From Candidatus Abyssobacteria bacterium SURF_5 (GTDB taxonomy: Bacteria > Abyssobacteria > SURF-5): DNA of 35,944 nucleotides. Within the stretch, counting starts at the first letter, position 1, and each line of letters begins with the position of its first letter. The notes beneath the pieces are model-generated. The model saw nothing but the letters and a program-made list of their open reading frames with translations. It did not search any database and was not told where the DNA came from. The stretch spans positions 1 through 35,944 of the forward strand of contig QZKU01000134.1 of NCBI GenBank assembly GCA_003598085.1. The letters run 5' to 3'. A program made the translations under genes and the position numbers. Of this stretch, positions 20,065 to 35,852 are shown one piece after another.

Positions 20065-20760
20065 TCATGAGACGGTATCATCCGTCTGCATGCCAAGCTG
20101 TTCGTAGACCCTGCGCCGGTTCCGCTTGTCCGTCTCGAGCTCGCGCCGGGCATATGCGGCAACAGAACGGGCAAGCTGTCTCGGTACCACGATGACTCCG
20201 TCGCCGTCGGCAACAACGATATCGCCCGGATTGACCACAACGCCTCCGACGCAGAGGGGAATATTCTTGGCCTCAAATTGCAGGCGGGCCTGCACCATGC
20301 TCTGTGAGATGAATTTCGACCACACCGGCGTCTTCTGGCGGATCAATTCATCGGTATCGCGCACTCCCCCTTCGATGACGTATCCGCGCACTCCCAGCAT
20401 GTAAAACGCAAGCGAATTGAAAGAACCCATCAACCCGCAATTGACGTTGCTCTGGTCGATCACCATCACGTCGCCTTGCTCGATATCCTCGTCCCACGGA
20501 TAGCTGCAAATCTCGCGATAATACCACTCGGACCACTCAGTATATTGGTCGGGAGTCATTTCCGGAACAGTTCCTTGAAATGGCAAATATCGAGCCGTCC
20601 GTGCGATTCCGACTACTCGTGTCCTGAACAGTGGCCTCATGTCGGGCGACATCGACCCGTAATGGTGCATCGAGTTCCAATCCATCCCATCGCGCACGTC
20701 CGATACGCGCAGGTCTTCGTAAAGTTCCAGAAGCTCTTTTCTCTCTTCCGAAGTTGCCAT
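20065..20760 (-). CDS. RraA-like / HMG-aldolase-family protein
   Basis: A 231-aa protein of the RraA fold, a family that includes 4-hydroxy-4-methyl-2-oxoglutarate and oxaloacetate aldolases/decarboxylases as well as the RNase E regulator RraA. It has SDVRDGMD near the N terminus, the substrate/metal motif GGVRDTDEL (131-139, with Arg134 and Asp135 in the usual positions) and the signature GGVVVNPGDIVVADGDGVIVVP (172-193). It is longer than RraA itself, by an insert around residues 55-95 containing WSEWYYREICSYPWDED. GAGGAG precedes the ATG. It is the last gene of the leftward catabolic unit, 24 bp after the GH2 gene, so a retro-aldol or decarboxylation step on a sugar-derived keto acid fits better than RNase regulation. 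Confidence 0.8.
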   Translation of the reverse strand: MATSEERKELLELYEDLRVSDVRDGMDWNSMHHYGSMSPDMRPLFRTRVVGIARTARYLPFQGTVPEMTPDQYTEWSEWYYREICSYPWDEDIEQGDVMVIDQSNVNCGLMGSFNSLAFYMLGVRGYVIEGGVRDTDELIRQKTPVWSKFISQSMVQARLQFEAKNIPLCVGGVVVNPGDIVVADGDGVIVVPRQLARSVAAYARRELETDKRNRRRVYEQLGMQTDDTVS

Positions 20761-20784
20761 CTCGCTCTCCTCAAATGCTCCCGC

Positions 20785-22560
20785 TCATGCTGAACTGCTG
20801 AATGCTTCATAAATTTCACAATTCAGCGCTCGCACCAAGTCCATGTCAAACTTCAAAATCTCTCTGTCATAGGTGAAGAAGCCGTTCGTTTCGATTTCGA
20901 CATCGGAGAACTGCGTATAGACTGCCGCGCCAAGACCGTGTGGAATCAATGGCATAATCTGTGTGCGTATCAGGTTTGCATATGCCTCATGAAGAGCGGC
21001 CTTTTCAGGAAACATCGCATAGCCGAATTCGCTCTCGCCGTTCCACAGATGCCCGGTTTCCTGATAGTTGTACCCGCCGTATTCTGAAATGAAGTAGATT
21101 CTTGTATCGTTTCGCGGCGGCTTCTTTAACTTGAGTACGTAGACGTGCCGGCTGCAAAAGTCGCCTGCGCCCTGCTCGAGCCAGCCGGAGGCGTGATCGA
21201 CTAGACGTGAAGGGTCTTGCCGCTTAACTGATTCCGAAATGCGGGCGGCATCAAACTGGCCCCAGGATTCGTTGAACGGAGTCCAGATAGCAATACTGGG
21301 CGCGTTCCGAAGGTGTTCGATCACTGCGGCAAGTTCCGCCTCAAAATCCCGGCGCGCCTCGGCAGATTCGCGCCATGCCTTTCGATAGGAGCGAGCGCCG
21401 GTGTCTTTGCGTTTCCTGTTTGAAAACATGACACGAACGATCTCGTCCTCGGCCAGCATATTCTTTCCGCCGGACGGCATATCCTGAATGACAAGCAACC
21501 CGAGGCGGTCGGCGTGATAGTACCAGCGGCGCGGCTCGACCTTCACGTGCTTGCGGGTCATGTTGAACCCAAGTTCAAGCGTCTTCTCGATATCGAAAAT
21601 CAACGCTTCATCCGAGGGAGGAGTCATGCCGCCATCCGGCCAATACCCTTGATCCAGCGGGCCGTGCAGGAATATGGGCTTGCCATTGAGCAAGATGCGC
21701 TTATGCCCGGACTGCCCCACCCCCGCCGATATCTTTCGCATGCCGAAGTAGCTTTCAACCGAATCGATAACTCCCGCCTCCTTGAGCAGGTCCACTTTCA
21801 AAGAGTAAAGAAATGGGTCCTGTGGAGACCAGAGATGAGGATTCGGCACCGGCAGCCGGAGCTTATGACCGGAGACGCCTTCAATCATCCCGACTTCAAC
21901 GCCTTCAGATGTGGCGGCAATCGATACTCTTCCCTCCGATCGCGTGAAAACCTCCACCTCCAGCGCTTCGTTGTCAACTTTCGGAACCAGCTTCAGGCGT
22001 ACGATGTAATTATCAGCATGGACCGGCTCGACCCACACCGTCTGCCAGATGCCGCTGGTGGCGGTGTAGTAGATAGATTCCGGCTGCAAAACCTGCTTCC
22101 CCTTCTGCTGCCAATGAGAGTCGGTGGGATCCCAAACAGAAACAACTAATTCGTTTTCTCCAGGAGCCAACACTTCAGAGATATCGAATGTAAAGGGAAC
22201 ATATCCGCCGGCGTGGGAGCCGACCTTTTGCCTGTTCACGTAACAGTCGCATTGCCAGTCCACTGCCTCGAAATGAAGCAGGATTCGTCTGTCTTTCCAA
22301 GTGTCGGGTATTGTGAAGAAGCGGCGGTACCACAATAACTGGTCGGGCAGCAAGGGGCGCTTTACTCCGGACAGGGCTGTCTCGATGGCGAACGGCACGA
22401 GTATCTTTCCCTCATACACCTCAGGGGAAGTCGCCGCGCGTGGCGTGACTGCGTAATCCCACAGGCCGTTCAAGCTCCGCCATTGCCGGCGAACCATCTG
22501 CGGGCGCGGATATTCCGGAAGGGGAGCGGCGGGGTCAAATTGCGCAGCCCACCGCGTCAT
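20785..22560 (-). CDS. Glycoside hydrolase family 2 protein (cytoplasmic)
   Basis: A 591-aa GH2 enzyme (beta-galactosidase / beta-glucuronidase / beta-mannosidase superfamily). The N-terminal sugar-binding domain shows RPQMVRRQWRSLNGLWDYAV and LWYRRFFTIPDTW; an immunoglobulin-like domain follows (about 185-270), then the TIM barrel with GFNMTRKHVKVEPRRWYYHADRLGLLVIQDMP. Catalytic residues appear intact: acid/base Glu431 in PFNESWGQFD and nucleophile Glu493 in ISEYGG. No signal peptide is present, so it should act on imported oligosaccharides or glycosides. The ATG at 22560 has AAGGGA six bases upstream; the ATG at 22593 with GGAG is an equal alternative and adds 11 residues. Specificity is not readable; it lies between the GH4 and RraA-like genes. 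Confidence 0.87.
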   Translation of the reverse strand: MTRWAAQFDPAAPLPEYPRPQMVRRQWRSLNGLWDYAVTPRAATSPEVYEGKILVPFAIETALSGVKRPLLPDQLLWYRRFFTIPDTWKDRRILLHFEAVDWQCDCYVNRQKVGSHAGGYVPFTFDISEVLAPGENELVVSVWDPTDSHWQQKGKQVLQPESIYYTATSGIWQTVWVEPVHADNYIVRLKLVPKVDNEALEVEVFTRSEGRVSIAATSEGVEVGMIEGVSGHKLRLPVPNPHLWSPQDPFLYSLKVDLLKEAGVIDSVESYFGMRKISAGVGQSGHKRILLNGKPIFLHGPLDQGYWPDGGMTPPSDEALIFDIEKTLELGFNMTRKHVKVEPRRWYYHADRLGLLVIQDMPSGGKNMLAEDEIVRVMFSNRKRKDTGARSYRKAWRESAEARRDFEAELAAVIEHLRNAPSIAIWTPFNESWGQFDAARISESVKRQDPSRLVDHASGWLEQGAGDFCSRHVYVLKLKKPPRNDTRIYFISEYGGYNYQETGHLWNGESEFGYAMFPEKAALHEAYANLIRTQIMPLIPHGLGAAVYTQFSDVEIETNGFFTYDREILKFDMDLVRALNCEIYEAFSSSA

Positions 22561-22728
22561 GATATTTCCCTTCACTGGTCGCCATTCTTTCATGCTGGGT
22601 CTCCGAAGTGAACGGGCGACTCGCCGAATCGCCCCCACAACCACCTGGAAATTTGACCGTCGCCCTCTATTCGCAACCTGAAGCCATAAATGCCGTGAAC
22701 AATAGGCCCGCCGATAGCCTTATTGAAA

Positions 22729-24039
22729 TTAGCTGTAGAAGCGCGGCAAATACGCCCGGTGCGCCTCGAGCATCGCGTCAAGACATTTTTCCGCAGTGAA
22801 ACGGTCGGGCACGACCGGGTCGAGCAGCATCGCCTCCAGCGCGGCCTGTCGGTCACCCTCCATCGCGGCCTTCGCGTTGAGCGAGTGAATCGCCGCATGC
22901 AGGTTGCACCATCCCGCTATGACTGGAGGAAGCGCGCCCACAACCTCGCCCTGCAGATGGTCTCCCCTGGTCGAGGTGGGGACCTCCACGATGCTGGTCG
23001 GCGGCAGATTGGAAATGTATCCATCGTTCGGAAGATTCAGCGCATTGAAACGCTCATGCCGGTCATGCGTAATAGCGGACACAATTTGCGCGACCACCTC
23101 TCCGCTGGGTATTTGAAGGAATTCCTCCGCCGGATAGCTGCCCCGGACCATCTTCGCGACGCGCTCGTCCACATCCTTCAGATACATCTGATAGGCCGAA
23201 AAGAAATCGAACGGCTCCATCTCCGACTCCCAGGCGGTTCGCCACACATGGCCGCCGGCGAGATATTCGCCTGCGTGACTGTCGCTGGTGACGCACAAAT
23301 AGCCCGTCAGCCGGAACAGGTCGGCCACCAGCAGGCGGTCCATATGCACGTTTCTCGGCGCCAGTTCGCGCACCATTGGGTATAAATCCTCTCCTGTTTC
23401 CTTATTGCGAACCTCGATATACCAAGTGAAGTGATTGAGACCTGCGGCGACCACATGCAGGCTCTCCTCCGGCATCTGGAGCAAGGACGAGAGATAGGCG
23501 TTGCCATCGACGATCTCGTGACAGCTCCCGACGAATTTGACACTCGTATAATCGTGCACCGCCTGAAGAATCCTGCTCATGGGATTGGCGAGGTTTATCA
23601 TCAACGCTTCTGGACATAGCTTCTCCACGTCCTGACAGATTTCCACCACAACCGGAATCTGGCGCATCGCATGAAAGAGGCCGCCCGGTCCGCCGTTTTC
23701 TCCCTGCGCCTGCTCGATGCCGAATTTCCTCGGAATGTGCTGGTCCATCTTCCAGAGCGGAAACCGATTGACCTCGACGCTTATTATGACGAAGTCGGCG
23801 CCGGGAAGCGCGCTGGCGCGGTCGGTTGTATATTCAAGTTTCAATTCGGCGCCGGCATACGCGATCAAGCGACGGCCGAGTTGATGCACCAGTTTCAACT
23901 TTTCCTCATTTACATCGACAAGGACGATCATGCTGCCGGAAAGGTCTTCGGTCTTGATGAAGTCCGAAATGAGCAAGGGGGCGAACTGCGTGCTGCCGCC
24001 CCCAAGAAAAACTATCTTTTTGTTTGACGCCAAGGTCAT
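22729..24039 (-). CDS. Glycoside hydrolase family 4 protein (NAD- and metal-dependent)
   Basis: A 436-aa GH4 enzyme, a family that cleaves glycosides through transient NAD-dependent oxidation at C3, elimination and re-addition. It has the Rossmann motif FLGGGSTQF (11-19), the family-specific ENGGPGG (114-120), the ANPMSRI loop (151-157), metal-binding Cys173-His174 in GSCHEI and Asn202-His203 in AGLNHFTW. All of these are in the expected order. The length is normal. The ATG has a strong AGGAGG overlapping upstream bases. GH4 includes alpha-glucosidases, alpha-galactosidases, alpha-glucuronidases and 6-phospho-glycosidases; ENGGPGG and the absence of a phosphotransferase nearby favour a non-phosphorylated substrate, but this is inference. 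It lies in a unit with two Gfo/Idh oxidoreductases and a GH2 enzyme. Confidence 0.87.
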   Translation of the reverse strand: MTLASNKKIVFLGGGSTQFAPLLISDFIKTEDLSGSMIVLVDVNEEKLKLVHQLGRRLIAYAGAELKLEYTTDRASALPGADFVIISVEVNRFPLWKMDQHIPRKFGIEQAQGENGGPGGLFHAMRQIPVVVEICQDVEKLCPEALMINLANPMSRILQAVHDYTSVKFVGSCHEIVDGNAYLSSLLQMPEESLHVVAAGLNHFTWYIEVRNKETGEDLYPMVRELAPRNVHMDRLLVADLFRLTGYLCVTSDSHAGEYLAGGHVWRTAWESEMEPFDFFSAYQMYLKDVDERVAKMVRGSYPAEEFLQIPSGEVVAQIVSAITHDRHERFNALNLPNDGYISNLPPTSIVEVPTSTRGDHLQGEVVGALPPVIAGWCNLHAAIHSLNAKAAMEGDRQAALEAMLLDPVVPDRFTAEKCLDAMLEAHRAYLPRFYS

Positions 24040-24122: not shown

Positions 24123-25199
24123 CTATGTCCCCAGCCATATCTGAATAGGCGTCTTTTCCATCGGAAGCGGTGAGGTCAAGTCGAGCGGCCTCTTCTCGCG
24201 CGCCGACAGATAACCCGCCGTCAGAATCCGCAGGACGCGTTCGCCGTCGAGCGCTGATTCCATCGGGATTTCCCCCGTTCGGAAGCAGCGCTCGAAGTCC
24301 TCAACCTGGCCGACATACCCGCCGCTTGCGAGGTACCTGTTCAGGCGCATGTCGAACTGGGCGGGAATGTCGATGTTCTCAACCTCTCCGTCAGCGTGAT
24401 AGAACGTCAGGAACTGAGGCGGAGGACTAAAGGCGGCCCGCAGTCGCCCCTTCTCCCCCTGCACTTCGTAATGAAAGCTCTCTTCTGTTTCGAGCCATGA
24501 ACTGACGCAGGTGATCTCGACGCCGTCTTTTGTCTCAAGAACGGCTTCGCCCTTCCCGTCAATGCCGCCGTCGGGCGCCTCCGCCAACACGCAGGATTTC
24601 ACTCGTTTAATCGGAGGCTTTCCCGTGAGGAACAGGACGCTTTCGAGCGTATGCGAGCCGAGGTCAAGATGGGCGCCGCCACCGGCGAACTGTGGTTTGC
24701 GGAACCAGCCGTTGGGCGGAGGGCCGCCATGACCGCAGAAGCCGAGCGCGCTCTTGACCGCGCCGAGTGCGCCATCGGCGATCATCTCGCGCGCCTTCAA
24801 GAGCAAGGGAGAATAAACCTGGTTCTCCGCGTATCCGATGGAGACGCCGGCCGCGGTTGCCGTCTCGGTCACTTTCTTCGCTTCGGCGAGAGTGATCGCG
24901 AGCGGTTTTTCGATAACGAGGTGTTTGCCCGCTCTGATCGCGGCAAGCGCGTGTTCCGCGTGAAGAGAGTTCGGGCTGAGCACGAAGACGATGTCGATGT
25001 CCTTGCGGGCGAGCATGTCCCCCAGATTGGAGAACGTGTATGGCGCCGCATCGAAAATTCTCGCCCTGTGCTCGGCGACCTCTTTCGACTGAGATGCGAT
25101 TGCAAGCAGTTTCAAGTTGGGATTGCTCCTTACCGCGAACAGATGCAGATAGGAAATGAATCCCGCTCCGATAAATGCCACTCCCGCAGGCTTATTCAT
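24123..25199 (-). CDS. Gfo/Idh/MocA-family NAD(P)-dependent oxidoreductase
   Basis: A 358-aa sugar dehydrogenase-type oxidoreductase. The N-terminal Rossmann fold begins with VAFIGAGFISYLHL (GxGxxS-like motif at 11-16), and the conserved EKP motif is at 97-99 (HLVIEKPLA). The C-terminal alpha/beta domain has GGGAHLDLGSHTLE (173-186), with a His at the place of the proton-relay His183. Length is normal. The start ATG overlaps the stop of the upstream oxidoreductase by 8 bases, so the two are translated together. Members of this family oxidise or reduce sugars, inositols or keto sugars; in a cluster with GH4 a C3-oxidation or 3-keto-sugar reduction is plausible, but not demonstrated. Confidence 0.85.
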   Translation of the reverse strand: MNKPAGVAFIGAGFISYLHLFAVRSNPNLKLLAIASQSKEVAEHRARIFDAAPYTFSNLGDMLARKDIDIVFVLSPNSLHAEHALAAIRAGKHLVIEKPLAITLAEAKKVTETATAAGVSIGYAENQVYSPLLLKAREMIADGALGAVKSALGFCGHGGPPPNGWFRKPQFAGGGAHLDLGSHTLESVLFLTGKPPIKRVKSCVLAEAPDGGIDGKGEAVLETKDGVEITCVSSWLETEESFHYEVQGEKGRLRAAFSPPPQFLTFYHADGEVENIDIPAQFDMRLNRYLASGGYVGQVEDFERCFRTGEIPMESALDGERVLRILTAGYLSAREKRPLDLTSPLPMEKTPIQIWLGT

Positions 25200-26334
25200 T
25201 GCGCGCCTCCTCGGGCCGCGGCCCCGAATTACTTTGCCGAATCATGGTTCGGGTGATTTCCTCGATTAATTCCATATCCTTCACCGCATCGCGGGCGCTC
25301 GTTAGTGGTTGGATACCCTTGGTTACAACTTCGTGGACATGCTTCCACTCGCACCGGAAGCCGGTCTCGAAGCGCCCTCCATGTGTTTCTTCCACCGTCA
25401 TCCCGTTCTTCTCGTACGTCGCTTTAAGCGACGAGGGCGCCGCGGCGGCGTAAGTCGGTGGGAATTTCACCTCGACTTGCAGGTCGGACCGTCGCGCGAG
25501 AAAGCCCCAGTCGGTCATTTTTGACTCATGGAATTCGGCCTGCATCAGAGTTCTGCCGATTCCGTGGTCAAGAATGATGTCCAGCGAGAGGCCGACGAGA
25601 TTCAGAGGACCATTCATGGCATGAGCGCGCGCGTAATCGACTTTGACCGGCTCGCCGACCATCCTGCGCATGACGGGGATGTCATGGATGACGAGGCCGA
25701 TCAGCAACCCGTGCGCGACTACAAAATTCACATCAAGGTCCGAACCGAACAATTCGGTGGCGACGGCGGCGAAATCCAGTTGACCGATGAGAGCCGGCCA
25801 GCGGTCTGCGATTGACGGCCTGATGGTCTGGAGAATCTCGTCGGCTGTGTATTTTTCGTTCGGCCCGAGAAACGTGCGGAATTGCGCGAACCGGAACGGC
25901 TGAGGTTCTCCCCAGAGTTCTTTTGCGCGCCGCGTCGCGGGGTCATACACATGCGGGTATCCCATGACAATGGGAACGCCGGATTCCTCCGAGGCCTCCG
26001 CCATCTTTCTCACGATTCGCGAATTGAGCGCCGGGGGCTTCTCGACGAGAGCCGCCTTCTTCTTGGCCTGGCAGGCCGCGAGCGCGTGGTCCACATGGTA
26101 TGAGTCGGGGGTTGCGATGACGACCACGTCAACGTCAGGGTCGCGAATCAAGTCGAACGGGTTCTCAACCGGGCGCGCGCCGGTTCTGTGGGCGACCTCG
26201 CCCATCACTTCGCGGCTCGCGTCGCTGCACGCTTCGATGCGATAGAGCGAGGCGAGGCTGTTGAGCGCCGGCACGTGGAGCGCCTGAATCGCCTCTCCGC
26301 ATCCCACAAGTCCCACCCTCAGTCGATTTGTCAT
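25192..26334 (-). CDS. Gfo/Idh/MocA-family oxidoreductase, second paralogue
   Basis: A 380-aa oxidoreductase with RVGLVGCGEAIQALHVPAL at the N terminus (Rossmann glycine motif at 9-13), VVIATPDSYHVDHALAACQAKKKAALVEKPPAL (EKP at 98-100) and a C-terminal domain of the family. It is clearly a different subgroup from the following oxidoreductase: a HDIPVMRRMVGEP segment replaces the GGG.HLDLGSH motif, suggesting a different sugar or a heteromeric partner. The frame is open to a TTG at 26358, but the ATG at 26334 is preferred and has GGAGA upstream. It is followed without a gap by its paralogue (8-bp overlap) and preceded by a URO-D-superfamily gene 57 bp away. Confidence 0.83.
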   Translation of the reverse strand: MTNRLRVGLVGCGEAIQALHVPALNSLASLYRIEACSDASREVMGEVAHRTGARPVENPFDLIRDPDVDVVVIATPDSYHVDHALAACQAKKKAALVEKPPALNSRIVRKMAEASEESGVPIVMGYPHVYDPATRRAKELWGEPQPFRFAQFRTFLGPNEKYTADEILQTIRPSIADRWPALIGQLDFAAVATELFGSDLDVNFVVAHGLLIGLVIHDIPVMRRMVGEPVKVDYARAHAMNGPLNLVGLSLDIILDHGIGRTLMQAEFHESKMTDWGFLARRSDLQVEVKFPPTYAAAAPSSLKATYEKNGMTVEETHGGRFETGFRCEWKHVHEVVTKGIQPLTSARDAVKDMELIEEITRTMIRQSNSGPRPEEARNE

Positions 26335-26391
26335 AAATTGTGCTTCTCCCTTCTCCAAGCGCCTATGTGTTTGGAGAGAAAGGCGCCTGCA

Positions 26392-27492
26392 TTAATGGGT
26401 TCGCTCTCCGATATCGCGAACCAACTTAAGGAAATACTCGAAATCTTCGAGCGAAACGTCCGGCGGCACATAATGGTCTATGCCGGGGAAATAGCCGCCT
26501 TCCTTCAGAAGCGCGGGTACTTTGGATTCGACCTCCTCGCGGATGGCTGTCGGGCCGAGCGCAAGCGCGCGCTTGTCTAATCCGCCCTCGATAATCAGCT
26601 TCTTGCCGTATTTCTGGCGGACTTGTCTGATATCCATTCCGGCCTGTGTCTCGAACGGCAGGAGTTTGTTGACGCCGACTTCGAGGAAGAGGGGAATGAG
26701 CGTGTGGACGTTACCGTCGGTGTCGACCTCGAACACCTCGACGCCTCGCGAGCGGACGCAATCGATGACGCGTCTATAGTAGGGGGACATGAATTCCTTG
26801 AATAAGGTCGGTCCGATCATCGGTCCGTTGCGATACGCCATATCTTCCCAGAAATCGATGGCGTCGAGTTTGGCCGAGGCGGTCATCTGTTCGATGATGC
26901 CCGTGTGGAGTTTCGCCCATTGTTCGCCGATAGCGTGAATCAGCTTGGGAGAATCGTAATAAGCGAACATGAGGTTGTCAAACCCGAGCAGGTGGCGCGC
27001 CAGGCCGAAGAGGCCGCAGATGTAGAGATAGAGCGGCATATCGGCCTCATTATAGAGAGCGGCGTTCTGGTCCCAGTCTTCGCCCAGCCGCTCGGGCGAC
27101 GCGGGGTCGAGACGCCACTTAAGGTCCTCGAACGACCGCATGTCTCGTACCGGAAATTCGAGAAACTGGGGCAAGGTGGACTGGCCGGTCTTGAATTCCT
27201 TGATTACGCTGCCGTAGCCGGTGCGCAGGACGCGGTAATTATCGGTCTCCTCGAACACCTGCTCCTCGAACGCCGGTGAGAATCCCGCGTTATATCCGCC
27301 GCCGAGAAAGATTGGGATACGCAAGCCCATCTCGAAATAGAAAAACGCAGTCAGCGTCTCCACGTCTTCCGGCAGTCCCTCGCCGCGCCACCGCTCGATC
27401 GTCTCGTTCCAGAATCCGATGGTCTCGAAGCGGAATGCCCGGTCAACCGGCTCGAACCTGCAGGTCGCATGGAATCGTTCACGGACATTCAC
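26392..27492 (-). CDS. URO-D-superfamily protein lacking the His-x-Cys motif
   Basis: A 366-aa TIM-barrel protein of the uroporphyrinogen decarboxylase superfamily, which also includes corrinoid-dependent methyltransferases such as MtaA/MtbA and aryl-ether O-demethylases. It is not HemE: the N-terminal RxxxxMRQAG motif is absent. Where methyltransferase members carry the zinc-binding His-x-Cys, this protein has DTDGN (257-261) followed by His263, and the late Cys is replaced in GGYFPGIDHYVPPDV (332-346). So zinc-type chemistry is doubtful; it may be a substrate-binding or metal-free variant. The start is GTG, with AAGGAG eight bases upstream and one base between it and the stop of the preceding URO-D gene, implying coupled translation of the two. 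Confidence 0.8.
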   Translation of the reverse strand: MNVRERFHATCRFEPVDRAFRFETIGFWNETIERWRGEGLPEDVETLTAFFYFEMGLRIPIFLGGGYNAGFSPAFEEQVFEETDNYRVLRTGYGSVIKEFKTGQSTLPQFLEFPVRDMRSFEDLKWRLDPASPERLGEDWDQNAALYNEADMPLYLYICGLFGLARHLLGFDNLMFAYYDSPKLIHAIGEQWAKLHTGIIEQMTASAKLDAIDFWEDMAYRNGPMIGPTLFKEFMSPYYRRVIDCVRSRGVEVFEVDTDGNVHTLIPLFLEVGVNKLLPFETQAGMDIRQVRQKYGKKLIIEGGLDKRALALGPTAIREEVESKVPALLKEGGYFPGIDHYVPPDVSLEDFEYFLKLVRDIGERTH

Positions 27493-27493
27493 T

Positions 27494-28600: not shown

Positions 28601-29521
28601 CTATGCGAGTATGCGGCGCATCATGAATTGGATGAATTCCTCCCGCCGAACATCTGTCGCCACCTTCACCGTGTTCCATTCTGCGTTCTTATAGCAGTTT
28701 ACCACAGTCAACCCCGCAGTAAATTCGCCTCTCGTCTCGATCACGACGTTAAGCATCATCGTATTTAGGAAATCAAGCGTAAATGCCGCGGAGCAGGCGA
28801 GGGCATCATGCATCGGCGTCTCTTTTTGTCCAATCACGTTCAACCAGATATCTGTCATGGCTGCGAGAAGATCGGTCGCAGCGGTATTGCGCTTCCTGAT
28901 CGATTCAAGATGCTCCTCCCTCAGCAGCGTCGGCATGGTTACGTTGCAGCCCACCAAAATAATAGGAACGCCGGAATCGAAAACGATGCGCACAGCCTCC
29001 GGGTCCGCAACAAAGTTGTAGTCGATCGGCCGTTCGCCGAAGAGTTCCATCTCTTTCAGGCCATAGAAAGGGGTTCCGCCCATAATGATAAACTGCTTGA
29101 TGAGAGCACCCAGTTCCGGCTTTGTCGACAGCAGTTTGCCGAAGTTCGTCTGCGGGCCTATAAGAACCACCGAAACTTCCTTGGGACGCTTTCTCAACAC
29201 CGACTCCACAAGCTCCAATGCCGGCACATCCGACAGCGCCACCTCTTCGCCCTCTTCGAATACGCCTTTGCCTTCGTGTCCCATCAGAAAAGCAGATCGA
29301 TCGGGATTCAGAGGAAGATTTTCGCCTGCCGCGACAGGAATGTCCGGTCTGCCCAACGCAATGAGCAGCTTCTTTGCAATGCGGGCGCGCAACCTTGCGT
29401 CGGCCCATACGGTCGTGACCGCTTCTATTTTGACCTCGGGGGAATTCGCCAGAAAAGCGAGCGCATACGCGTCGTCCACATCGGTCCCAATATCAGTGTC
29501 AATGATCACGCGTTCTGTCAT
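28601..29521 (-). CDS. Nucleoside hydrolase-family protein
   Basis: A 306-aa member of the inosine/uridine-preferring nucleoside hydrolase family, which cleaves N-glycosidic bonds of ribonucleosides using a calcium-bound Asp cluster. The N-terminal motif is DTDIGTDVDDAYAL (8-21, with Asp8, 10, 14, 16 and 17), a variant of the canonical DTDPGxDDA with one extra residue pair. Later conserved parts are present: IGPQTNF, IMGGTPF, the NFVADPEA segment (169-176) and His238-Asp239 in PMHDALACSAAF. It starts at the ATG at 29521 with AGAGG five bases upstream. In other bacteria this subgroup often sits with sugar-catabolism genes and may not act on nucleosides. Here it lies between the corrinoid protein and two URO-D genes. 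A 225-bp gap upstream holds no visible gene. Confidence 0.83.
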   Translation of the reverse strand: MTERVIIDTDIGTDVDDAYALAFLANSPEVKIEAVTTVWADARLRARIAKKLLIALGRPDIPVAAGENLPLNPDRSAFLMGHEGKGVFEEGEEVALSDVPALELVESVLRKRPKEVSVVLIGPQTNFGKLLSTKPELGALIKQFIIMGGTPFYGLKEMELFGERPIDYNFVADPEAVRIVFDSGVPIILVGCNVTMPTLLREEHLESIRKRNTAATDLLAAMTDIWLNVIGQKETPMHDALACSAAFTLDFLNTMMLNVVIETRGEFTAGLTVVNCYKNAEWNTVKVATDVRREEFIQFMMRRILA

Positions 29522-29746
29522 CACAGCCTCTTTCGCATCACTCAGATTGAACTTATCGGGCAACAGTTAGGGGGAATTTGAAGTTCTCCAGTTGAACATC
29601 CGGCGGAATAAGGAATGAACAAGGATGAATAATGATACACGGTAGCTTTTGCAACCGGTCGCTGGACGATTATCTTTGTGACTTGAGCGCTCACTGTTCT
29701 TCGGTTCCTTTGGCAAGCAATCCGTTTGATCGATTGTCGAGTGTCT

Positions 29747-30400
29747 CTATTTCGCGGCGCTTGCGGAGGTTTCGATGAACCGTCGCGCCACATCGACGGC
29801 GGCCGCCGCATCATCACCATAGCCGTCCGCTCCGATCTCTTCGGCGTACTCGCGGCTCACCGGAGCGCCTCCAACCATGATTTTGACTTTCCTTGTGAGT
29901 CCCGCCGCATGCAGCGCGTTGATGGTTTCGCGCAGTTTCGGCATGGTCGTGGAGAGAAGCGCCGACATCGCCACAATTTGGACGCCTTCTTCGCCCGCGG
30001 CCTCGACAAATCTCTGCGGCGGAACGTCAATCCCTATGTCTCTCACATGGAACCCAGCCCCTCGGAGCATCATGCCCACTAGGTTCTTGCCAATATCATG
30101 CAGGTCGGACTGCACGGTTCCCAGCACAACCTTCCCCACAGGCTTCGCCCCCGTCTCGGCGAGTTTTGGTTCGAGAACCGCAAGCCCGCCGTGCATTGCC
30201 CGAGCGGCAATCAGCACCTCGGGAATGAAAACTTCGTTCTTTTTGAATTTGGCTCCGATCACATCCATTCCGGCGATGAGGCCATTAGAGAGAATGTCTG
30301 CGGGTGAAAGCCCCGCGCCAAGAGATTCTCGAATCAGTCGTTCGACTTCCTTCATGTCGCCTCTCTGCAGCGCTTCAGAAAGTTGGTTCAGTTCCACCAT
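29747..30400 (-). CDS. Corrinoid (B12-binding) protein of a methyltransferase system
   Basis: A 217-aa protein like MtaC/MtbC/MttC and the O-demethylase corrinoid proteins. It carries the methyl group on cobalt between MT-I and MT-II. The N-terminal four-helix cap (about 1-85) includes the conserved LIAGMDVIGAKF and EVFIPEVLIAARAM. The B12 domain has the base-off lower-ligand motif SDLHDIGKNLV (Asp99, His101, Gly104), SALLSTTM (146-153) and GGAPV (177-181). Length is standard. AAAGGAG lies seven bases before the ATG. It follows the methyl-tetrahydrofolate methyltransferase by 54 bp in the same orientation. Because the activating ATPase/ferredoxin (RACE/RamA type) is not in the window, reactivation must be supplied from elsewhere. 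Confidence 0.9.
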   Translation of the reverse strand: MVELNQLSEALQRGDMKEVERLIRESLGAGLSPADILSNGLIAGMDVIGAKFKKNEVFIPEVLIAARAMHGGLAVLEPKLAETGAKPVGKVVLGTVQSDLHDIGKNLVGMMLRGAGFHVRDIGIDVPPQRFVEAAGEEGVQIVAMSALLSTTMPKLRETINALHAAGLTRKVKIMVGGAPVSREYAEEIGADGYGDDAAAAVDVARRFIETSASAAK

Positions 30401-30454: not shown

Positions 30455-31270
30455 TCAAGGTAAATGTTTATCATTTGGTTCCAGTTTCTTTTCCCGATAG
30501 GCCGAAATATACGCCATACAATACTCATCATTCCCCAAAACGGCTCTGGCCGTGATGAGATTCGCCATCATCTGCCTGTCAAGCGGGTCAATGATCACCG
30601 CATCGAGCCCAGCCGCCATTGCGGCCACCAGAAAAACCCGGTTCATCATCCTCCGCGCAGGAAGCCCAAAGGATATGTTGCTCAGGCCGCAGATAGTGTG
30701 AATGCCGGGGTATCGCCGCTTGATTTCATGGATTACCTGCAGGGCAACCGCCCCGCTTCTCTGGTCGGTGCTGACCGCCATGATGAGGGGGTCAACATAG
30801 ACATGATCCAACGGAACTCCATCTGAAAGCAAATTATCGACCAGACCAAACCCAACTTTGAGCTTGTCTTCGAATCCCCCAGGAATTCCATTGTCGTCCA
30901 GACATAGGGCGACGGTTCTGCACTCATATTCCCGAATCAGTGGCAGCATGGCCGTGTAGTTTTCCTTCTCGGCGGTAATCGAGTTGACCATCATGCCCCG
31001 GCCGCACATGCTCAGCCCCTCTGCAATCACCTTTGGGTCTGTGCTGTCGATGCAGAGGGGCAAATCGTTCGCTTGCCTGACGCTCTTGATGATCCATTTG
31101 AGATTTTCGATTTCTCGCTCGGCGAACGTGCCGGCATTCACATCGAGAAAATGCGCGCCCGCAGCCGCTTGCATTCGGGCTTCGTCCCATATGGGGATGA
31201 TATTCCGATGCCGCGCCGCTTCCGCGACCTGTTTGCGGCTTGTGTTGATGCGCTCACCTACAATCAGCAT
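30455..31270 (-). CDS. Methyltetrahydrofolate:corrinoid methyltransferase (MtrH/AcsE-like, MT-II)
   Basis: A 271-aa pterin-binding TIM-barrel protein of the AcsE / MtvA / MtrH kind, which exchanges methyl between methyl-tetrahydrofolate and the corrinoid protein. It shows GERINTSR (5-12), the FLDVNAG strand (41-47), LCIDSTDP (72-79), Asn96 in MVNSI, a D-P pair (160-161) and GLSNISFGLP (195-204). These are the pterin site landmarks also found in MetH and AcsE. It is close in length to AcsE. The ATG at 31270 has AAAGGACGG upstream; a GTG at 31300 extends the frame but would leave almost no leader from the promoter at 31326-31355. It is the first gene of the leftward unit, directly downstream of the TetR operator. 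Confidence 0.88.
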   Translation of the reverse strand: MLIVGERINTSRKQVAEAARHRNIIPIWDEARMQAAAGAHFLDVNAGTFAEREIENLKWIIKSVRQANDLPLCIDSTDPKVIAEGLSMCGRGMMVNSITAEKENYTAMLPLIREYECRTVALCLDDNGIPGGFEDKLKVGFGLVDNLLSDGVPLDHVYVDPLIMAVSTDQRSGAVALQVIHEIKRRYPGIHTICGLSNISFGLPARRMMNRVFLVAAMAAGLDAVIIDPLDRQMMANLITARAVLGNDEYCMAYISAYREKKLEPNDKHLP

Positions 31271-31318
31271 TGCAAGCCGTCCTTTCTCATCATGGAGCAC
31301 GCACGGCCAGAAAAAAAT

Positions 31319-31332
31319 CTAGTAGATACTAG
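31319..31332. promoter_or_regulatory. Inverted repeat over the leftward promoter: probable TetR operator
   Basis: CTAGTA-GA-TACTAG is a perfect 6-bp inverted repeat with a 2-bp centre. It covers the -10 of the leftward promoter and resembles the core of the palindrome before the tetR gene (TAGTA-TA-TACTA there). Confidence 0.6.
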
Positions 31333-31424: not shown

Positions 31425-31455
31425 AAACACTAGGATCTAAGCAAATAGGAACTTG

Positions 31456-31477
31456 AAGAATAGTATATACTATTCTT
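31456..31477. promoter_or_regulatory. 22-bp perfect palindrome in the tetR leader: probable TetR operator
   Basis: A perfect palindrome with half-sites AAGAATAGTA and TACTATTCTT around a central TA. It lies between the candidate promoter and the tetR start codon at 31495, as expected for autorepression. Its core TAGTA-TA-TACTA matches that of the smaller repeat over the leftward promoter. Confidence 0.65.
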
Positions 31478-31494
31478 TGAAGAGGTTTGAGATC

Positions 31495-32133
31495 ATGGCA
31501 AATATAGGCAGGCGCGAAATCCGTGCCGCTCACGGGAAAAAGACGACACCACGAGCCGCAGCCCGGCGGGAACAGATACTCAAGGCGGCGACCCATGTTT
31601 TTGCCCGTGAAAATTATCACGGCGCCACTACCGCAAAGATTGCGGCGGCGGCCGGAATAACGGAGCCCGTTATCTACACGTATTTCGCCAACAAGAGGGA
31701 TCTTTTTCTTGAAGTTTTGCGGAAGAGCCGTGCCGATATTTTCACATGGAATGAAGAGGTCTTGAGAGAGCATGACGACCCCATCCAGCGATACAAGGTG
31801 TACACAGATAAGTACAAGCACTACGTCACAAAGGTGAATCGTGATTCCGCTATGATGTGGGCCGTGGCGGCCTCGGTGAACGATCCGGAGATTAAAGCCG
31901 AAATACGCGAATCCGACGAAGAAGTTCTCAATCAGTTGACGAACGATATTCGGCGAACCATGGAGGAAGGCAAGATCACCTCTCGACATGCGCCCCAAGT
32001 GTTGGCGAGAATCATTCACGGAGTCAATTCACACCTGGCGTGGTTGATTCTTGTGGGAGAGACACACACTCAGGATTGGATATACGAAGGTTTCAAGATA
32101 CTCATCGAAGACTTGGTCAAGAAAGAAGTCTGA
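31495..32133 (+). CDS. TetR-family transcriptional regulator
   Basis: A 212-aa regulator. The N-terminal domain shows AARREQILKAATHVFARENYHGATTAKIAAAAGITEPVIYTYFANKRDLFLEVL, with the helix-turn-helix at about residues 45-66; the first 20 residues are a basic arm. The C-terminal ligand/dimerisation domain (about 75-212) has no recognised ligand signature, as is usual. The start is the ATG at 31495 with AGAGG nine bases upstream; the frame stays open to a TTG at 31453, but that would put the palindrome inside the coding sequence. The gene is 3 bp from the downstream URO-D gene. The matched inverted repeats on both sides suggest it represses both transcription units until an inducer, perhaps the substrate or a sugar intermediate, binds. 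Confidence 0.88.
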   Translation: MANIGRREIRAAHGKKTTPRAAARREQILKAATHVFARENYHGATTAKIAAAAGITEPVIYTYFANKRDLFLEVLRKSRADIFTWNEEVLREHDDPIQRYKVYTDKYKHYVTKVNRDSAMMWAVAASVNDPEIKAEIRESDEEVLNQLTNDIRRTMEEGKITSRHAPQVLARIIHGVNSHLAWLILVGETHTQDWIYEGFKILIEDLVKKEV

Positions 32134-32136
32134 CAC

Positions 32137-33240
32137 ATGAACCCCTCGATTCAGCAGTTGCTTGAGCTGTATCTTCAACCCGCGCCCGTTCCGCCGGGCA
32201 TGACCAGCCGCGATATGGTCCTCAAAGCCATCAAGTTCGTACACCCGCCGCGTATCCCGTACAGTTTCATTTCGCCGGTCGAGAGCGACTTTTTTGAAGT
32301 GGCGGCCATACCGCAGTTCATGCATCTGGTCGAACCCGACGGCAAGGCGGCGAATATCTGGGTGAGCGCAGGGAAGAAGGGGGCGAAGGACCCCGGCGAT
32401 CGGTACCATGACGAGTGGGGTGTCGGCTGGGAAGTAACCGGCCGGCATTGGGATCATGCTTTCGACCATCCGCTTCGCGACCTGCGGAATCTCGACAGCT
32501 ATCGATTTCCCGATGTCGCCGACCCGGAAAAATATGATATGCTGAAGCCGTTTCTGGAGATGGGCCGGAAAGCCGGAAAATACACGGTGGGGTTCGACCC
32601 GATTCTCATGTTTGAGCGGATGCGCGCGCTCCTGGGATTTGAGGAACTGATGGTTTCCCCTTACACTCAGCCCCGGGGACTGGAACTGCTGCTTGACCGC
32701 CTGGCCGACCTAGAGAGCGCCGTCATCGAGCAATGGGCGCGGATCGGCGGAGTGGACGCGTACATGACGTGGGACGACTGGGGCCTGCAGACCTCGCTCC
32801 AGATGGACCCTGATACCTTTCGCAAATTCTACAAGCCGCGTTACAAACGAATTGTCGAGGCCGCTCACCAGCACGGCATGCATTACATCTGGCATAACTG
32901 CGGCCACATTATCGATATGATTCCCGATATGATCGATATTGGGGTGGATGTCGTGCAACTCGATCAGCCGCGCCTGATGGGGCACAGAAATCTGGCCGAC
33001 AAATTCGGCGGCGGCATCTGTTTCTGGAATACCGTGGACATCCAATGGTCGACGATGGAGAATCCGACCGAAGAGGAAATTGGGGCTGAAGTGGCGGAGA
33101 TGATTGCGGCATTCGACCGGTTCGGCGGCGGCTTTATGGCTCGCCAATATCCTGATCCGACCGATATCGAGATGTCCCCTGAGCGCCATGAAATGATCTA
33201 CCAAGCCTTTCTGGCGCATGGCTGTTCGCTGAGTGAATAA
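32137..33240 (+). CDS. URO-D-superfamily protein with His-x-Cys motif
   Basis: A 367-aa URO-D-superfamily TIM-barrel protein. HxC is present as His253-Cys255 in WHNCGHI, while the late Cys position has GGGFMARQYPDPTDIE instead, so only part of the zinc site seen in MtaA-like enzymes is conserved. TSRDMVLKAIKFVHPPRIPYSF near the N terminus and YMTWDDWGLQTSLQMDP before the HxC strand are typical of uncharacterised methyltransferase-like members that lie in C1 or sugar clusters. HemE motifs are absent. It begins 3 bp after tetR and overlaps the fucosidase gene by 8 bp, so it belongs to the regulated rightward unit. A methyltransferase role is inferred from family and context. Confidence 0.8.
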   Translation: MNPSIQQLLELYLQPAPVPPGMTSRDMVLKAIKFVHPPRIPYSFISPVESDFFEVAAIPQFMHLVEPDGKAANIWVSAGKKGAKDPGDRYHDEWGVGWEVTGRHWDHAFDHPLRDLRNLDSYRFPDVADPEKYDMLKPFLEMGRKAGKYTVGFDPILMFERMRALLGFEELMVSPYTQPRGLELLLDRLADLESAVIEQWARIGGVDAYMTWDDWGLQTSLQMDPDTFRKFYKPRYKRIVEAAHQHGMHYIWHNCGHIIDMIPDMIDIGVDVVQLDQPRLMGHRNLADKFGGGICFWNTVDIQWSTMENPTEEEIGAEVAEMIAAFDRFGGGFMARQYPDPTDIEMSPERHEMIYQAFLAHGCSLSE

Positions 33241-34687
33241 GGAGCTCATTGAGGAATTGAGACGGCAGTCCCTGCAGAACCGGCCGCTTTCGAAATGGTT
33301 CGACGACGCGAAGCTTGGGATATTCATTCATTGGGGCGTCTTTTCCATTCCTGCCTGGGCGCCCTTCGGCGACGACTATCAGACGCTCATTAAAAGGAAA
33401 GGGTATAGATATCAGCTTGCCCATAACCCGTATGCCGAATGGTACCTTAATACAATGAAGATCACGGGGAGCCCCACCTGCCGGCATCACATCGAAAAGT
33501 ATGGCGAGGATTTCTCTTATTATGATTTTGTGCCTCAGTTTGAAAGAGAAGCGGCTAAAATAAATCCCGGCGCCTGGGCCGAACTGTTCGCAAAAGCCGG
33601 CGCTCGCTACGTCGTAATGGTGACCAAACACCACGATGGCTACACTCTCTGGCCCACCGCGTACGAAAACCCCAGAAGGACCGGCTTGCATTCAGAACGG
33701 GATTTCGTGAAAGAAGTGACCGAGGCGGTCCGCACAGCGGGCTTGAAAATGGGCCTCTACTACTCGGGCGGGCTCGATTGGACTTTCAAGAAAACGGCCA
33801 TCAGCGACCCATACACCTTTCTGACCAACACGCCGCAAGAGGACGAATACGTCACCTACGCAACGAATCATTTCAGGGAACTCATCGATTGGTATAAACC
33901 CTCGGTCCTGTGGAACGACATCCGCTGGCCCCAGGACCCAAACCTGACCGACCTTTTTTCTTACTACTACAGCGTCGTACCCGACGGTGTTATCAACGAT
34001 CGGTGGAGCCAGACCACATATCCGGAGAACCGAATAATGCGCTCGATCATCAATACGGTGGCATGGTTCCGGGCAAAACATGCATCCGGCGAGCACAATC
34101 CGCCGCCAATACATTGCGATTACATTACACCCGAATACCGGGTGTTGGATCAGATCAGCGCGAAGAAGTGGGAGGCGTGCCGGGGTCTCGGGACTTCGTT
34201 TGGATATAACATGAATGAACCGGACGACAACCTGCTCACTGCGGAAGAGCTTATTCACAGCTTCGCGGACATCGTGAGCAAAAACGGGAATCTCCTGATC
34301 AATGTCGGGCCGATGGCCGACGGAACAATTCCCGACGCCCAGCGCGACCGCCTTATGGGGTTGGGCGCCTGGCTCGCCGTGAATGGAGACGCCATTTACA
34401 ATACGCGACCATGGGTAACGGCGGAAGACAAGACTCGAGACGGCAAGGGCGTACGCTTCACTCAAAAAGATGAGGCCCTCTACGCTATCATCCTCGGGCC
34501 AATAACAGACCCAGAGATCACCATCGAATCGTTGAGGTGCGCGCCAAACACGAAAATCCACCTCTTGGGCGAGAAAAAACCTCTCCACTGGCGACAGGAC
34601 GGAAGCGGCCTGACTATTCTTTTGCCGGAAGCCTTGCCGGATGCTCCGGCGTACTCGTTCAAGATGGCGCCCCGACCGGAGCGATAG
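33233..34687 (+). CDS. Alpha-L-fucosidase-type glycoside hydrolase family 29 protein
   Basis: A 484-aa GH29 enzyme. It has the family N-terminal motif FDDAKLGIFIHWGVFSIPAW (23-42), VVMVTKHHDGYTLWP (127-141), MGLYYSGGLDWTF and the catalytic nucleophile Asp229 in SVLWNDIRWP, in the same setting as characterised GH29 fucosidases. KWEACRGLGTSFGYN (about 312-326) is the usual later segment, and Glu313 is a candidate partner residue. A small C-terminal beta domain follows. There is no signal peptide, so it should be cytoplasmic, unlike many secreted fucosidases. The start is the GTG at 33233 that overlaps the preceding URO-D gene by 8 bases. Fucose or a methylated/other 6-deoxy sugar could be the leaving glycone; this is not decided by sequence. 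Confidence 0.87.
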   Translation: MNKELIEELRRQSLQNRPLSKWFDDAKLGIFIHWGVFSIPAWAPFGDDYQTLIKRKGYRYQLAHNPYAEWYLNTMKITGSPTCRHHIEKYGEDFSYYDFVPQFEREAAKINPGAWAELFAKAGARYVVMVTKHHDGYTLWPTAYENPRRTGLHSERDFVKEVTEAVRTAGLKMGLYYSGGLDWTFKKTAISDPYTFLTNTPQEDEYVTYATNHFRELIDWYKPSVLWNDIRWPQDPNLTDLFSYYYSVVPDGVINDRWSQTTYPENRIMRSIINTVAWFRAKHASGEHNPPPIHCDYITPEYRVLDQISAKKWEACRGLGTSFGYNMNEPDDNLLTAEELIHSFADIVSKNGNLLINVGPMADGTIPDAQRDRLMGLGAWLAVNGDAIYNTRPWVTAEDKTRDGKGVRFTQKDEALYAIILGPITDPEITIESLRCAPNTKIHLLGEKKPLHWRQDGSGLTILLPEALPDAPAYSFKMAPRPER

Positions 34688-34730
34688 ACTGAATGCATGA
34701 TCACCGTGAGGCGGGGAGGAAAAATATACT

Positions 34731-35852
34731 ATGTCAATGACTTCCAGGGAAAGGCTTTTGTGCGCGTTGAACAAGGGGAAACCGGACCGCATGCCGGTCT
34801 CAATCCATCAATGGCAAAGATACCATCTGGACACGTATCTGGGGGGGATTTCTGAACTGGATGCCTTCCGAGAATTTGGATTGGATGCCCAGGTCCAATT
34901 CCATCAAGGAATGGGCCAATTTTGGCTGGTTGACGGACAGGTGACAATGGTTAGCTCGCCCCATTGGCTCTATGAGGCAAAGGCGGTCGAAATGGACGGT
35001 GACGCAGTCGTAATGGAGCACGTAATCCAGACACCCGGCGGCCAGCTCTCATATAAGACGGCTACCAACCCGAAAACGACCTGGGTGCTCGACTACATGA
35101 TTAAGCGCGATGAGGATATCGAACTGATCCAAAAGTATATGCCCGTGCCGCGACTCGACGTGAAATGGGCCAACTCCATCCATGACTCGATCGGCGACGA
35201 CGGCATGCTCCGCGGCTTTGTATGGGGCGACCAGGCCGGGTGCTGGCAGCATGCATGCCTTCTGAAGGACGTGAACCAACTCATTCTGGATTGTTTCGAC
35301 AAACCAGATTGGGTCCATGAACTGCTTTCCATTCTTCTCGAAAAGAAACTACAGTTTGTCGAAACAATGCAGGGGGCCACATTCGACGTAGTGGAAACTG
35401 GGGGAGGCGCGGCATCCTCAACGCTTATCTCTCCTTCCCTGCACAGAGAATTCTGTCTGCCGTACGATCGCAAGATGCATGACGCATTGCATGCATTGGA
35501 TTTCAAGGTTACGTACCATACGTGCGGCGGCACGCGCGGAATTGAGGAGATGATTGTCGCCAACGGCGCCGACGCCTCGGAAACACTGGCGCCTCCGAGC
35601 ATCGGGGGAAACCAGGAGCCTTGGGAATTCAAGGCGAAGGTGGCGGGTCGAATGGCGTTGATCGGAGGAGTGGACCAGATCAACATCCTGACAAATGGGT
35701 CGGAGCAGCAAATTCGGAACGTGGTCATTGAGCTCTTTCAAAAAGTCGGGCATGACGGTGGCTACATCTGCTCGGCCGCCGATCATTTCTTTGAGACGCC
35801 GCCGGAGAACCTGAAGGTTTTTGCCGACGTCGCGCGGGAATGCGTCTACTAA
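34731..35852 (+). CDS. URO-D-superfamily corrinoid methyltransferase-like protein
   Basis: A 373-aa URO-D-superfamily protein with a full candidate zinc-ligand set: His263 and Cys265 in TYHTCGGTRG, and Cys347 in GGYICSAADHFFE. The N terminus TSRERLLCALNKGKPDRMPVSIHQW is the typical opening of methyltransferase-like members, whereas HemE-specific residues are missing. VVETGGGAASSTLISPSLHREFCLPYDRKMHDAL is the conserved stretch before the HxC strand. GGAGG lies about 11 bases before the ATG, and the gap to the fucosidase gene is 43 bp. It closes the visible rightward unit. With the corrinoid protein and MT-II encoded on the other side of tetR, it is a second strong candidate for MT-I. Confidence 0.82.
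   Translation: MSMTSRERLLCALNKGKPDRMPVSIHQWQRYHLDTYLGGISELDAFREFGLDAQVQFHQGMGQFWLVDGQVTMVSSPHWLYEAKAVEMDGDAVVMEHVIQTPGGQLSYKTATNPKTTWVLDYMIKRDEDIELIQKYMPVPRLDVKWANSIHDSIGDDGMLRGFVWGDQAGCWQHACLLKDVNQLILDCFDKPDWVHELLSILLEKKLQFVETMQGATFDVVETGGGAASSTLISPSLHREFCLPYDRKMHDALHALDFKVTYHTCGGTRGIEEMIVANGADASETLAPPSIGGNQEPWEFKAKVAGRMALIGGVDQINILTNGSEQQIRNVVIELFQKVGHDGGYICSAADHFFETPPENLKVFADVARECVY

Follow-up and report, generated by a model that had tools for sequence, protein, structure and literature searches.

How are methyl groups taken off sugars where oxygen is absent? Plant, algal, and microbial glycans often carry methyl ethers. The only established enzymatic demethylation of sugars found in the literature searched is the oxygen-dependent route of cytochrome P450 enzymes, and a 2025 study describes the anaerobic demethylation of methyl-galactose as not elucidated, its mechanism still to be discovered (PMC12316285). 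This question is raised by a locus at positions 20065 to 35852 of a contig of 35,944 nucleotides (QZKU01000134.1, here C134; this whole stretch is termed the window) from the deep-subsurface metagenome-assembled genome (MAG) 'Candidatus Abyssubacteria' SURF_5, which comprises 5,103,455 bases in 145 contigs. Its two divergent arms encode a corrinoid protein, its methyltransferase II (MT-II), and four proteins of the uroporphyrinogen decarboxylase (URO-D) superfamily, termed URODa to URODd, among glycosidases and sugar oxidoreductases. The reading developed here, for which the chances are judged about even, is that the locus carries out the anaerobic, corrinoid-dependent demethylation of O-methylated furanose or fucose glycosides to methyl-tetrahydrofolate (methyl-THF). 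It draws on the joint conservation of methyl-transfer and sugar genes in a sister genus, on a motif shared by three of the URO-D proteins with a known methyltransferase, and on the co-occurrence of these URO-D families with free-standing corrinoid proteins across genomes. The locus thereby offers candidate demethylases, a carrier protein, and an acceptor enzyme for the missing anaerobic route.

Organization of the locus

Gene families were assigned by Pfam and equivalogs were called by NCBIfam cut-offs. All of the genes that the initial annotation had named in this region were recovered in place by Pfam, and these are given below together with the operator-like sites (MT-I, methyltransferase I; "conserved core" marks genes kept around the same promoter in the related genome SURF_17).

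20065..20760, minus strand: RraA-like aldolase/decarboxylase-family protein (PF03737, E 9.5e-25)
20785..22644, minus strand: GH2 glycosidase, putatively of the furanosidase type (closest solved structures 7sf2 and 9j6n); conserved core
22729..24039, minus strand: GH4 NAD-dependent glycosidase (PF02056/PF11975, E 2.9e-50)
24123..25199, minus strand: Gfo/Idh/MocA sugar oxidoreductase 1 (Pfam); conserved core
25192..26358, minus strand: Gfo/Idh/MocA sugar oxidoreductase 2 (Pfam); conserved core
26392..27492, minus strand: URODa, a URO-D protein without the His-x-Cys (HxC) pair (motif EVDTDGN); conserved core
27494..28549, minus strand: URODb, candidate MT-I (motif HSCGN); conserved core
28601..29563, minus strand: N-glycosidase of the IU-nucleoside-hydrolase family (PF01156, E 1.4e-54); apparently accessory
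29747..30400, minus strand: free-standing methyltransferase corrinoid protein (PF02607 and PF02310, motif SDLHDIG); conserved core
30455..31300, minus strand: MT-II, methyl-THF:corrinoid methyltransferase (Pterin_bind, PRK07535); conserved core
31321..31330, no strand: operator-like site 1 (ctAGTAGATACTag), which contains the pattern AGTANATACT
31453..32133, plus strand: TetR-family regulator (PF00440, E 1.3e-15); conserved core
31456..31477, no strand: operator-like site 2, a perfect palindrome of 22 nt (AAGAATAGTATATACTATTCTT) that precedes the likely start of TetR
32137..33240, plus strand: URODc, candidate MT-I (motif HNCGH; URO-D Pfam E 3.6e-13); conserved core
33233..34687, plus strand: GH29 alpha-L-fucosidase-family glycosidase (Pfam E 7.5e-90)
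34731..35852, plus strand: URODd, candidate MT-I (motif YHTCGG), of a family that spans many phyla

Read outward from the promoter, the left arm runs from MT-II through the corrinoid protein, nucleoside hydrolase, URODb, URODa, Gfo/Idh 2, Gfo/Idh 1, GH4, and GH2 to RraA, and the right arm from TetR through URODc and GH29 to URODd, the last gene, 92 nt beyond which the contig stops, so that the locus may extend further on the right. Intergenic gaps in both arms range from -8 to +84 nt, the sole exception being the 183 nt that separate the corrinoid protein from the nucleoside hydrolase, and 8-nt overlaps join Gfo/Idh 1 with Gfo/Idh 2 and URODc with GH29. Sugar and methyl genes are interleaved in each arm (URODc-GH29-URODd and Gfo/Idh-URODa-URODb). 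As in a polysaccharide or glycoside utilization locus, several families (GH2, GH4, GH29, two Gfo/Idh proteins, and TetR) are found together in two divergent operons.

The pattern AGTANATACT has matches in the whole window at 31321 and 31462 only, both inside the divergent promoter and the latter at the heart of the 22-nt palindrome; the chance expectation for the window is 0.02, an optimistic figure since the pattern was picked after the promoter had been viewed. The syntenic promoter of SURF_17 holds two weaker TAGTA-type matches, at 6470 and 6585. The likely start codon of TetR is the ATG at 31495 rather than the one at 31453, and a TetR dimer bound to the operator-like pair would govern both arms. 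Because the gaps are operon-like, the orthologous genes are syntenic in SURF_17, and the operator-like pair is confined to the divergent promoter, the locus is more than a chance assembly and very probably constitutes one real functional unit.

Conservation in SURF_17 and recurrence in a distant genome

Three species of the SURF_5 phylum are contained in the genome set, among them SURF_17, whose amino-acid identity to SURF_5 is ~65% (PMC6121073). The first part of SURF_17 contig C14 encodes URODb and URODa (at the contig edge), three LUD/LutB/LutA-like genes, the corrinoid protein, and MT-II, and the divergent part encodes TetR, GH51, a PfkB kinase, GH2, a further URO-D, URODc, Gfo/Idh 2, and Gfo/Idh 1, the last followed by a URO-D-related protein of 360 aa; a PF04909-family amidohydrolase lies at the end of the stretch. 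Nine genes are common to both genomes around the same promoter: those for GH2 (67% identity), Gfo/Idh 1 (64%), Gfo/Idh 2 (67%), TetR (68%), the corrinoid protein (71%), MT-II (64%), URODa (81%), URODc (71%), and URODb (63% over the portion present), values that are near or over the genome average. URODd is also encoded by SURF_17 (80% identity), but on a different contig. Conservation of the gene set, which had been put forward as a check on the initial annotation, is therefore partial: these nine genes are kept, whereas the SURF_17 stretch lacks RraA, the nucleoside hydrolase, GH4, and GH29, which look accessory. The nine shared genes set against the glycosidases that give way in SURF_17 to GH51 and a sugar kinase point to a conserved core with turnover of the remaining glycosidases, as in glycan loci.

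The iron-sulfur genes of the LUD/LutB/LutA type occupy positions 1726-4621 of the SURF_17 stretch, the place of the nucleoside hydrolase between the URO-Ds and the corrinoid protein, and may connect lactate- or glycolate-type oxidation to the locus. Separately, the third family member groups an MT-II (60% identity) with a corrinoid protein and an MttB-family methyltransferase (positions 3103-7042 of a stretch of G001:C72), which makes a system of the quaternary-amine type and not a sugar system.

A comparable, independent arrangement was detected in G041, a genome that shares only the domain level with SURF_5. On one strand of its contig C106 (~57-80 kb) are encoded GH4, a glucosamine-isomerase-like protein, a BadF-type sugar kinase, three DUF2961 (GH172-family) proteins, a corrinoid protein, and URODb, continued by a GntR regulator, three related proteins without assigned family, URODb, another URO-D, and URODb, i.e., three URODb and one further URO-D in total; a major facilitator superfamily transporter is nearby, and no MT-II was detected near the stretch. 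A second G041 locus combines two URODb, GntR, two DUF2961 proteins, and a GH94-type protein. The stretch on C106 is operon-like, and a corrinoid protein and URO-Ds amid glycosidases are therefore not unique to Abyssubacteria. The initial claim that glycosidases and methyl-transfer genes belong to a single unit is borne out by their joint conservation in SURF_17 and by the combination of glycosidases, corrinoid protein, and URO-Ds in G041.

These observations bear on the alternative that two functions merely share a regulator, with a general methyl intake (corrinoid protein and MT-II, supplied from thiols, aromatics, or halides by many URO-Ds dispersed in the genome) placed beside a separate sugar module and the two linked only as starvation or scavenging genes. 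Such a division would suit the presence in the SURF_5 genome of two corrinoid proteins for 20 URO-D matches, and also the arrangement elsewhere, where MT-II and corrinoid protein are mostly apart from glycosidases and URODd is apart from corrinoid proteins. The interleaving of the halves in both operons, seen again in SURF_17 and G041, argues against it, and this alternative is considered unlikely.

The corrinoid protein, MT-II, and the proposed fate of the methyl group

The corrinoid protein combines a B12-binding domain with the helical cap PF02607 and is MtgC/MtbC-like; its DxHxxG motif is intact as SDLHDIG. MT-II scores 326 bits against the cut-off of 259 for NCBIfam PRK07535 (methyl-THF:corrinoid methyltransferase). 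Both identifications agree with those made at first sight, and the locus is likely to carry out corrinoid methyl transfer. In the SURF_5 genome, only two free-standing PF02607 methyltransferase corrinoid proteins were found against 20 URO-D matches, and the second belongs to an mlp-like cluster on contig C70 with its own activase. Three PF14574 reductive activases are encoded in the genome. A complete Wood-Ljungdahl pathway and multiple corrinoid methyltransferases have been reported for both the SURF_5 and SURF_17 MAGs (PMC6121073), which, with the activases, supports the earlier suggestion that the methyl groups would feed methyl-THF.

Three candidate methyltransferases among four URO-D proteins

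All four URO-D genes of the locus were considered candidate MT-I genes in the initial annotation; their Pfam E values range from 3e-13 to 1e-22. URODb, URODc, and URODd carry the HxC pair, and in URODb and URODd it aligns with the HICG of the methylcobalamin:coenzyme M methyltransferase MtbA. URODa has EVDTDGN in its place, is closest among solved proteins to UroD (4wsh, E 1.1e-7) rather than MtbA, and is 64% identical to a paralog in its own genome. URODa was dropped as a zinc-type MT-I on these two grounds, the missing HxC and the UroD match, and is probably not such an enzyme, so that the good MT-I candidates, as judged from sequence, would be three rather than four.

For URODb, a profile of 14 relatives has MtbA as its best solved match (4ay7, E 1.6e-4), with a weak match to CdmB (9rui, 0.059). 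Its relatives occur at 33-47% identity in many families, and none was matched in the viral contigs searched. The HxC is near-invariant across the URODb family and is present in all three aligned URODc relatives. For URODd, the profile likewise matches MtbA first among solved proteins (E 1.9e-3), and its AlphaFold2 model (predicted local distance difference test score 88.6) has MtbA as its first fold match in the PDB (4ay8, E 5.7e-14), with UroD next. The HxC is invariant in 29 URODd sequences, and the other invariant stretches (HQWQ, GDQAGCWQH, ETGGG, and DHFF) are rich in Trp, Gln, His, and Asp, residues that would fit a polar sugar pocket better than a hydrophobic channel like that of CdmB. 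The URO-Ds of the locus score far below the curated cut-offs TIGR01463, NF040654, and NF041608 (MtaA/CmuA, MtaA, and MtbA), the best being URODd with 83 bits against 235.

A proposed shared corrinoid hub

URODd has 448 relatives in GTDB genomes, the best 80 of which are 61-80% identical and belong to Planctomycetota, Aminicenantes, Hydrogenedentota, Bacteroidota, Spirochaetes, Atribacteria, Acidobacteria, Chloroflexi, Latescibacterota, and others. One of the hosts, Calditrichales bacterium MX18-03 (L178), carries no MAG label and may be an isolate. The neighborhoods of these 80 (mean stretch 13.9 kb) were inspected. Since searches by phmmer with the window proteins alone missed many glycosidase families among locus neighbors, Pfam scans were added. 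Immediate neighbors assigned by Pfam include other URO-Ds (14 of 101), alpha-L-fucosidase (5), Gfo/Idh proteins, sugar-binding proteins, aldo-keto reductases, sulfatases, and L-fucose isomerase, and in one genome (G280) URODd adjoins a GH38 mannosidase and two more URO-Ds. GH29 was found in 18 of the 80 URODd loci versus 3 of 60 other fetched loci, a convenience sample and thus a non-random control (p 0.003); ten GH29 matches lie within 2 kb of URODd. In an observation of its own, some genomes (G146, G283, and G263) contain 34-54 candidate URO-D loci, several in sugar contexts (e.g., L063, L064, L066, and L084).

At the level of whole genomes, a free-standing PF02607 protein (open frame of at most 300 aa) was found in 45 of 50 URODd-bearing genomes, and a free-standing corrinoid protein in 17 of 18 genomes with these URO-D families versus 1 of 18 controls without them (Fisher p 1e-10 and 3.6e-8, respectively, against the controls, with kinship and lifestyle uncontrolled). 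The remaining control genomes have larger, mostly MetH-sized PF02607 proteins, or nothing. Most URO-D relatives do not stand beside a corrinoid protein, and a co-located three-component cassette is therefore not the general rule; a shared hub fits better. The simplest reading is that many MT-I enzymes share one corrinoid/MT-II hub and that the locus encodes the carrier and its MT-II.

The same data bear on the alternative that the URO-Ds are TIM-barrel sugar enzymes (isomerases, lyases, or decarboxylases) unrelated to the corrinoid protein and MT-II. URO-D genes are indeed common in sugar contexts without an adjacent corrinoid gene, and URODa, as noted, lacks the HxC and resembles UroD. Against this stand the near-universal co-occurrence with free-standing corrinoid proteins at the genome level, the invariance of the HxC in URODd, and MtbA as the top fold match, which together leave the alternative very improbable. 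Members of the URODd family may be misannotated as uroporphyrinogen decarboxylase.

Sugar enzymes and the nature of the methylated substrate

The GH2 protein is closest among solved proteins to 7sf2 (E 8e-154) and then to the beta-D-galactofuranosidase 9j6n (E 6.5e-152), and the catalytic motifs FNESWG and ISEYGG are present in its sequence. 9J6M is assigned to GH2_18, a group acting on the furanoses beta-D-galactofuranose and alpha-L-arabinofuranose (PMC12243196), and GH2 of the locus would accordingly belong to this beta-D-galactofuranosidase/alpha-L-arabinofuranosidase group, as far as sequence can tell, and not to the generic beta-glycosidases; the GH51 of SURF_17 is of the arabinofuranosidase type. 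GH4 is closest to 5c3m and 1s6y, both 6-phospho-beta-glucosidases, and next to the alpha-galacturonidase 3fef, and the nearest solved relative of GH29 is the T. maritima alpha-L-fucosidase 2zwy (E 4e-110). The solved relatives of Gfo/Idh 1 include an aldose-aldose oxidoreductase, a sugar 3-ketoreductase, and DgpA; Gfo/Idh 2 is nearest to DgpA1 (1.4e-12), in a match confined to its N-terminal part. The RraA-like protein scores under every NCBIfam equivalog cut-off and shows distant kinship to LigK-type aldolases. No obvious signal peptide was seen, judging by eye, at the N-terminus of any locus glycosidase, and small imported glycosides are therefore the likely substrates. Candidate source glycans are fragments of arabinogalactan-protein or rhamnogalacturonan II with 4-O-methyl-glucuronate or 2-O-methyl-fucose, and microbial methylated galactofuranosides.

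Could the methyl group come instead from methoxylated aromatic glycosides, the glycosidases cutting off the sugar and the URO-Ds acting as aryl-ether O-demethylases like MtvB, OdmB, or MtoB? The characterized URO-D ether demethylases listed in PMC13222342 use methoxylated aromatics, RraA is distantly related to LigK-type aldolases, an amidohydrolase of family PF04909 ends the SURF_17 stretch, and the Gfo/Idh relatives include DgpA-type enzymes that act on C-glycosides. RraA, however, is missing from the SURF_17 stretch and falls below all equivalog cut-offs, and no conserved ring-processing gene is present in the locus. The furanosidase types of GH2 and GH51, along with the placing of URODd homologs amid fucosidases, sulfatases, sugar-binding proteins, and fucose isomerase, point to sugars as well, so that an aromatic substrate appears rather unlikely. 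That the methyl group comes from a sugar ether is a claim on which the evidence is evenly poised.

Proposed mechanism

In the proposed demethylation of sugars, a TetR-controlled cytoplasmic pathway would handle small O-methylated glycosides. First, methylated sugars would be freed or trimmed by GH2, GH29, and GH4 (in the sister genus also by GH51) and then oxidized or epimerized by the Gfo/Idh pair; a keto group made by Gfo/Idh beside the methoxy group could, speculatively, ease ether cleavage. Second, URODb, URODc, and URODd would act as MT-I enzymes, each for a different methyl ether or position, and methylate the corrinoid protein (29747) in its Co(I) state. Third, MT-II (30455) would transfer the methyl group to tetrahydrofolate, and the methyl-THF would enter the Wood-Ljungdahl pathway. 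The corrinoid/MT-II pair probably also serves URO-Ds scattered over the genome. In this scheme, the gene identities, the operon layout, the common divergent promoter with its operator-like sites, the conservation in a second genus, and the recurrence in a distant lineage are read from sequence; that the URO-Ds work as MT-I enzymes, that a sugar ether donates the methyl group, and that transfer runs toward demethylation is inferred. In its widest form, the locus and the widespread URODd family would together perform the anaerobic corrinoid demethylation of O-methylated sugars such as O-methyl fucose, galactofuranose, or arabinofuranose, with one hub and many sugar-specific URO-Ds encoded amid glycosidases across bacterial phyla, a proposal held tentatively and at slightly less than even confidence.

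Several points weigh against demethylation of sugars by this route. An unactivated alkyl methyl ether is harder to cleave than an aryl ether. The third zinc ligand of MtbA is not evident in URODd, where a Cys near residue 347 varies across phyla, and the HxC could have another role than a zinc site; the URODd model also matches the UroD fold generally. No activase gene lies within 20065-35852, and four genes of the locus, two of them for glycosidases of families GH4 and GH29, are those not kept in the SURF_17 stretch. None of the 80 URODd stretches contains a corrinoid protein or MT-II, almost none of ~20 MT-II loci in other families has glycosidases nearby, and outside the SURF_5 family the relatives of the other URO-Ds and of MT-II are mostly unlinked to each other. 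The co-occurrence of the two halves predicted at the outset is seen in SURF_17 and G041 and is rare among the MT-II loci of other families. One MT-II/GH29 neighborhood (L196) was rejected as chance-like, lying amid genes for tRNA synthetases, DnaJ, and chorismate enzymes.

Comparison with characterized systems

The component parts are of known kinds. The open-access literature searched offers no precedent for their combination or for the proposed substrate class, and no report of corrinoid demethylation of sugars was found there. MtvABC of Moorella, Odm/Vdm of Acetobacterium dehalogenans, and archaeal MtoABC resemble the locus in having a URO-D-superfamily MT-I, a small corrinoid protein, and an MT-II, and in feeding the methyl group into one-carbon metabolism, as proposed here (PMC13222342, PMC8630106). 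By description rather than sequence comparison, the locus differs from them in its several divergent URO-Ds per corrinoid protein, in its interleaved glycosidases and Gfo/Idh genes, and in its sugar rather than aromatic context. The chloromethane dehalogenase CdmBCA of Acetobacterium dehalogenans also shares the URO-D MT-I, corrinoid protein, and MT-II, but it comes without glycosidases, and CdmB is marked by a hydrophobic channel, the lack of zinc, and the sequence SFQGE in place of the HSCGN of URODb. The GH2_18 beta-D-galactofuranosidase of Streptomyces sp. JHA19 (9J6M/9J6N) is about as similar to the locus GH2 as any solved protein; it is not known to sit among methyltransferase genes.

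Type 1 mlp gene clusters (Kountz and Balskus, PMC10418091) likewise combine several URO-Ds with a corrinoid protein, whereas the locus has glycosidases and MT-II and no activase. Its classification as such a cluster (a definition that asks for Mlps with >25% identity to SCMTs, encoded together with a corrinoid protein and an activase) was rejected due to low SCMT similarity and the missing activase. A candidate type 1 mlp cluster was noticed elsewhere in SURF_5 (C70, 28000-42402), with two MtaA-like URO-Ds, a corrinoid protein, and a reductive activase.

The P450 demethylation of 6-O-methyl-D-galactose in porphyran-degrading marine bacteria also strips a sugar methyl group during polysaccharide breakdown (PMC10033563). 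That route requires oxygen and yields formaldehyde, whereas the locus would give methyl-THF without oxygen and, if the proposal is true, would provide its oxygen-free counterpart. One-carbon units from glycans degraded in anoxic sediments, in the subsurface, and possibly in guts would then pass straight into acetogenesis, and in many phyla URODd proteins, which are readily labeled uroporphyrinogen decarboxylases, may demethylate sugars.

The window also contains, at 115-17366, an unrelated surface-polysaccharide region that encodes YfhO, PMT-type transferases, UDP-glucose dehydrogenase, several glycosyltransferases, a Polysacc_synt (flippase) protein, and two S-adenosylmethionine (SAM) methyltransferases.

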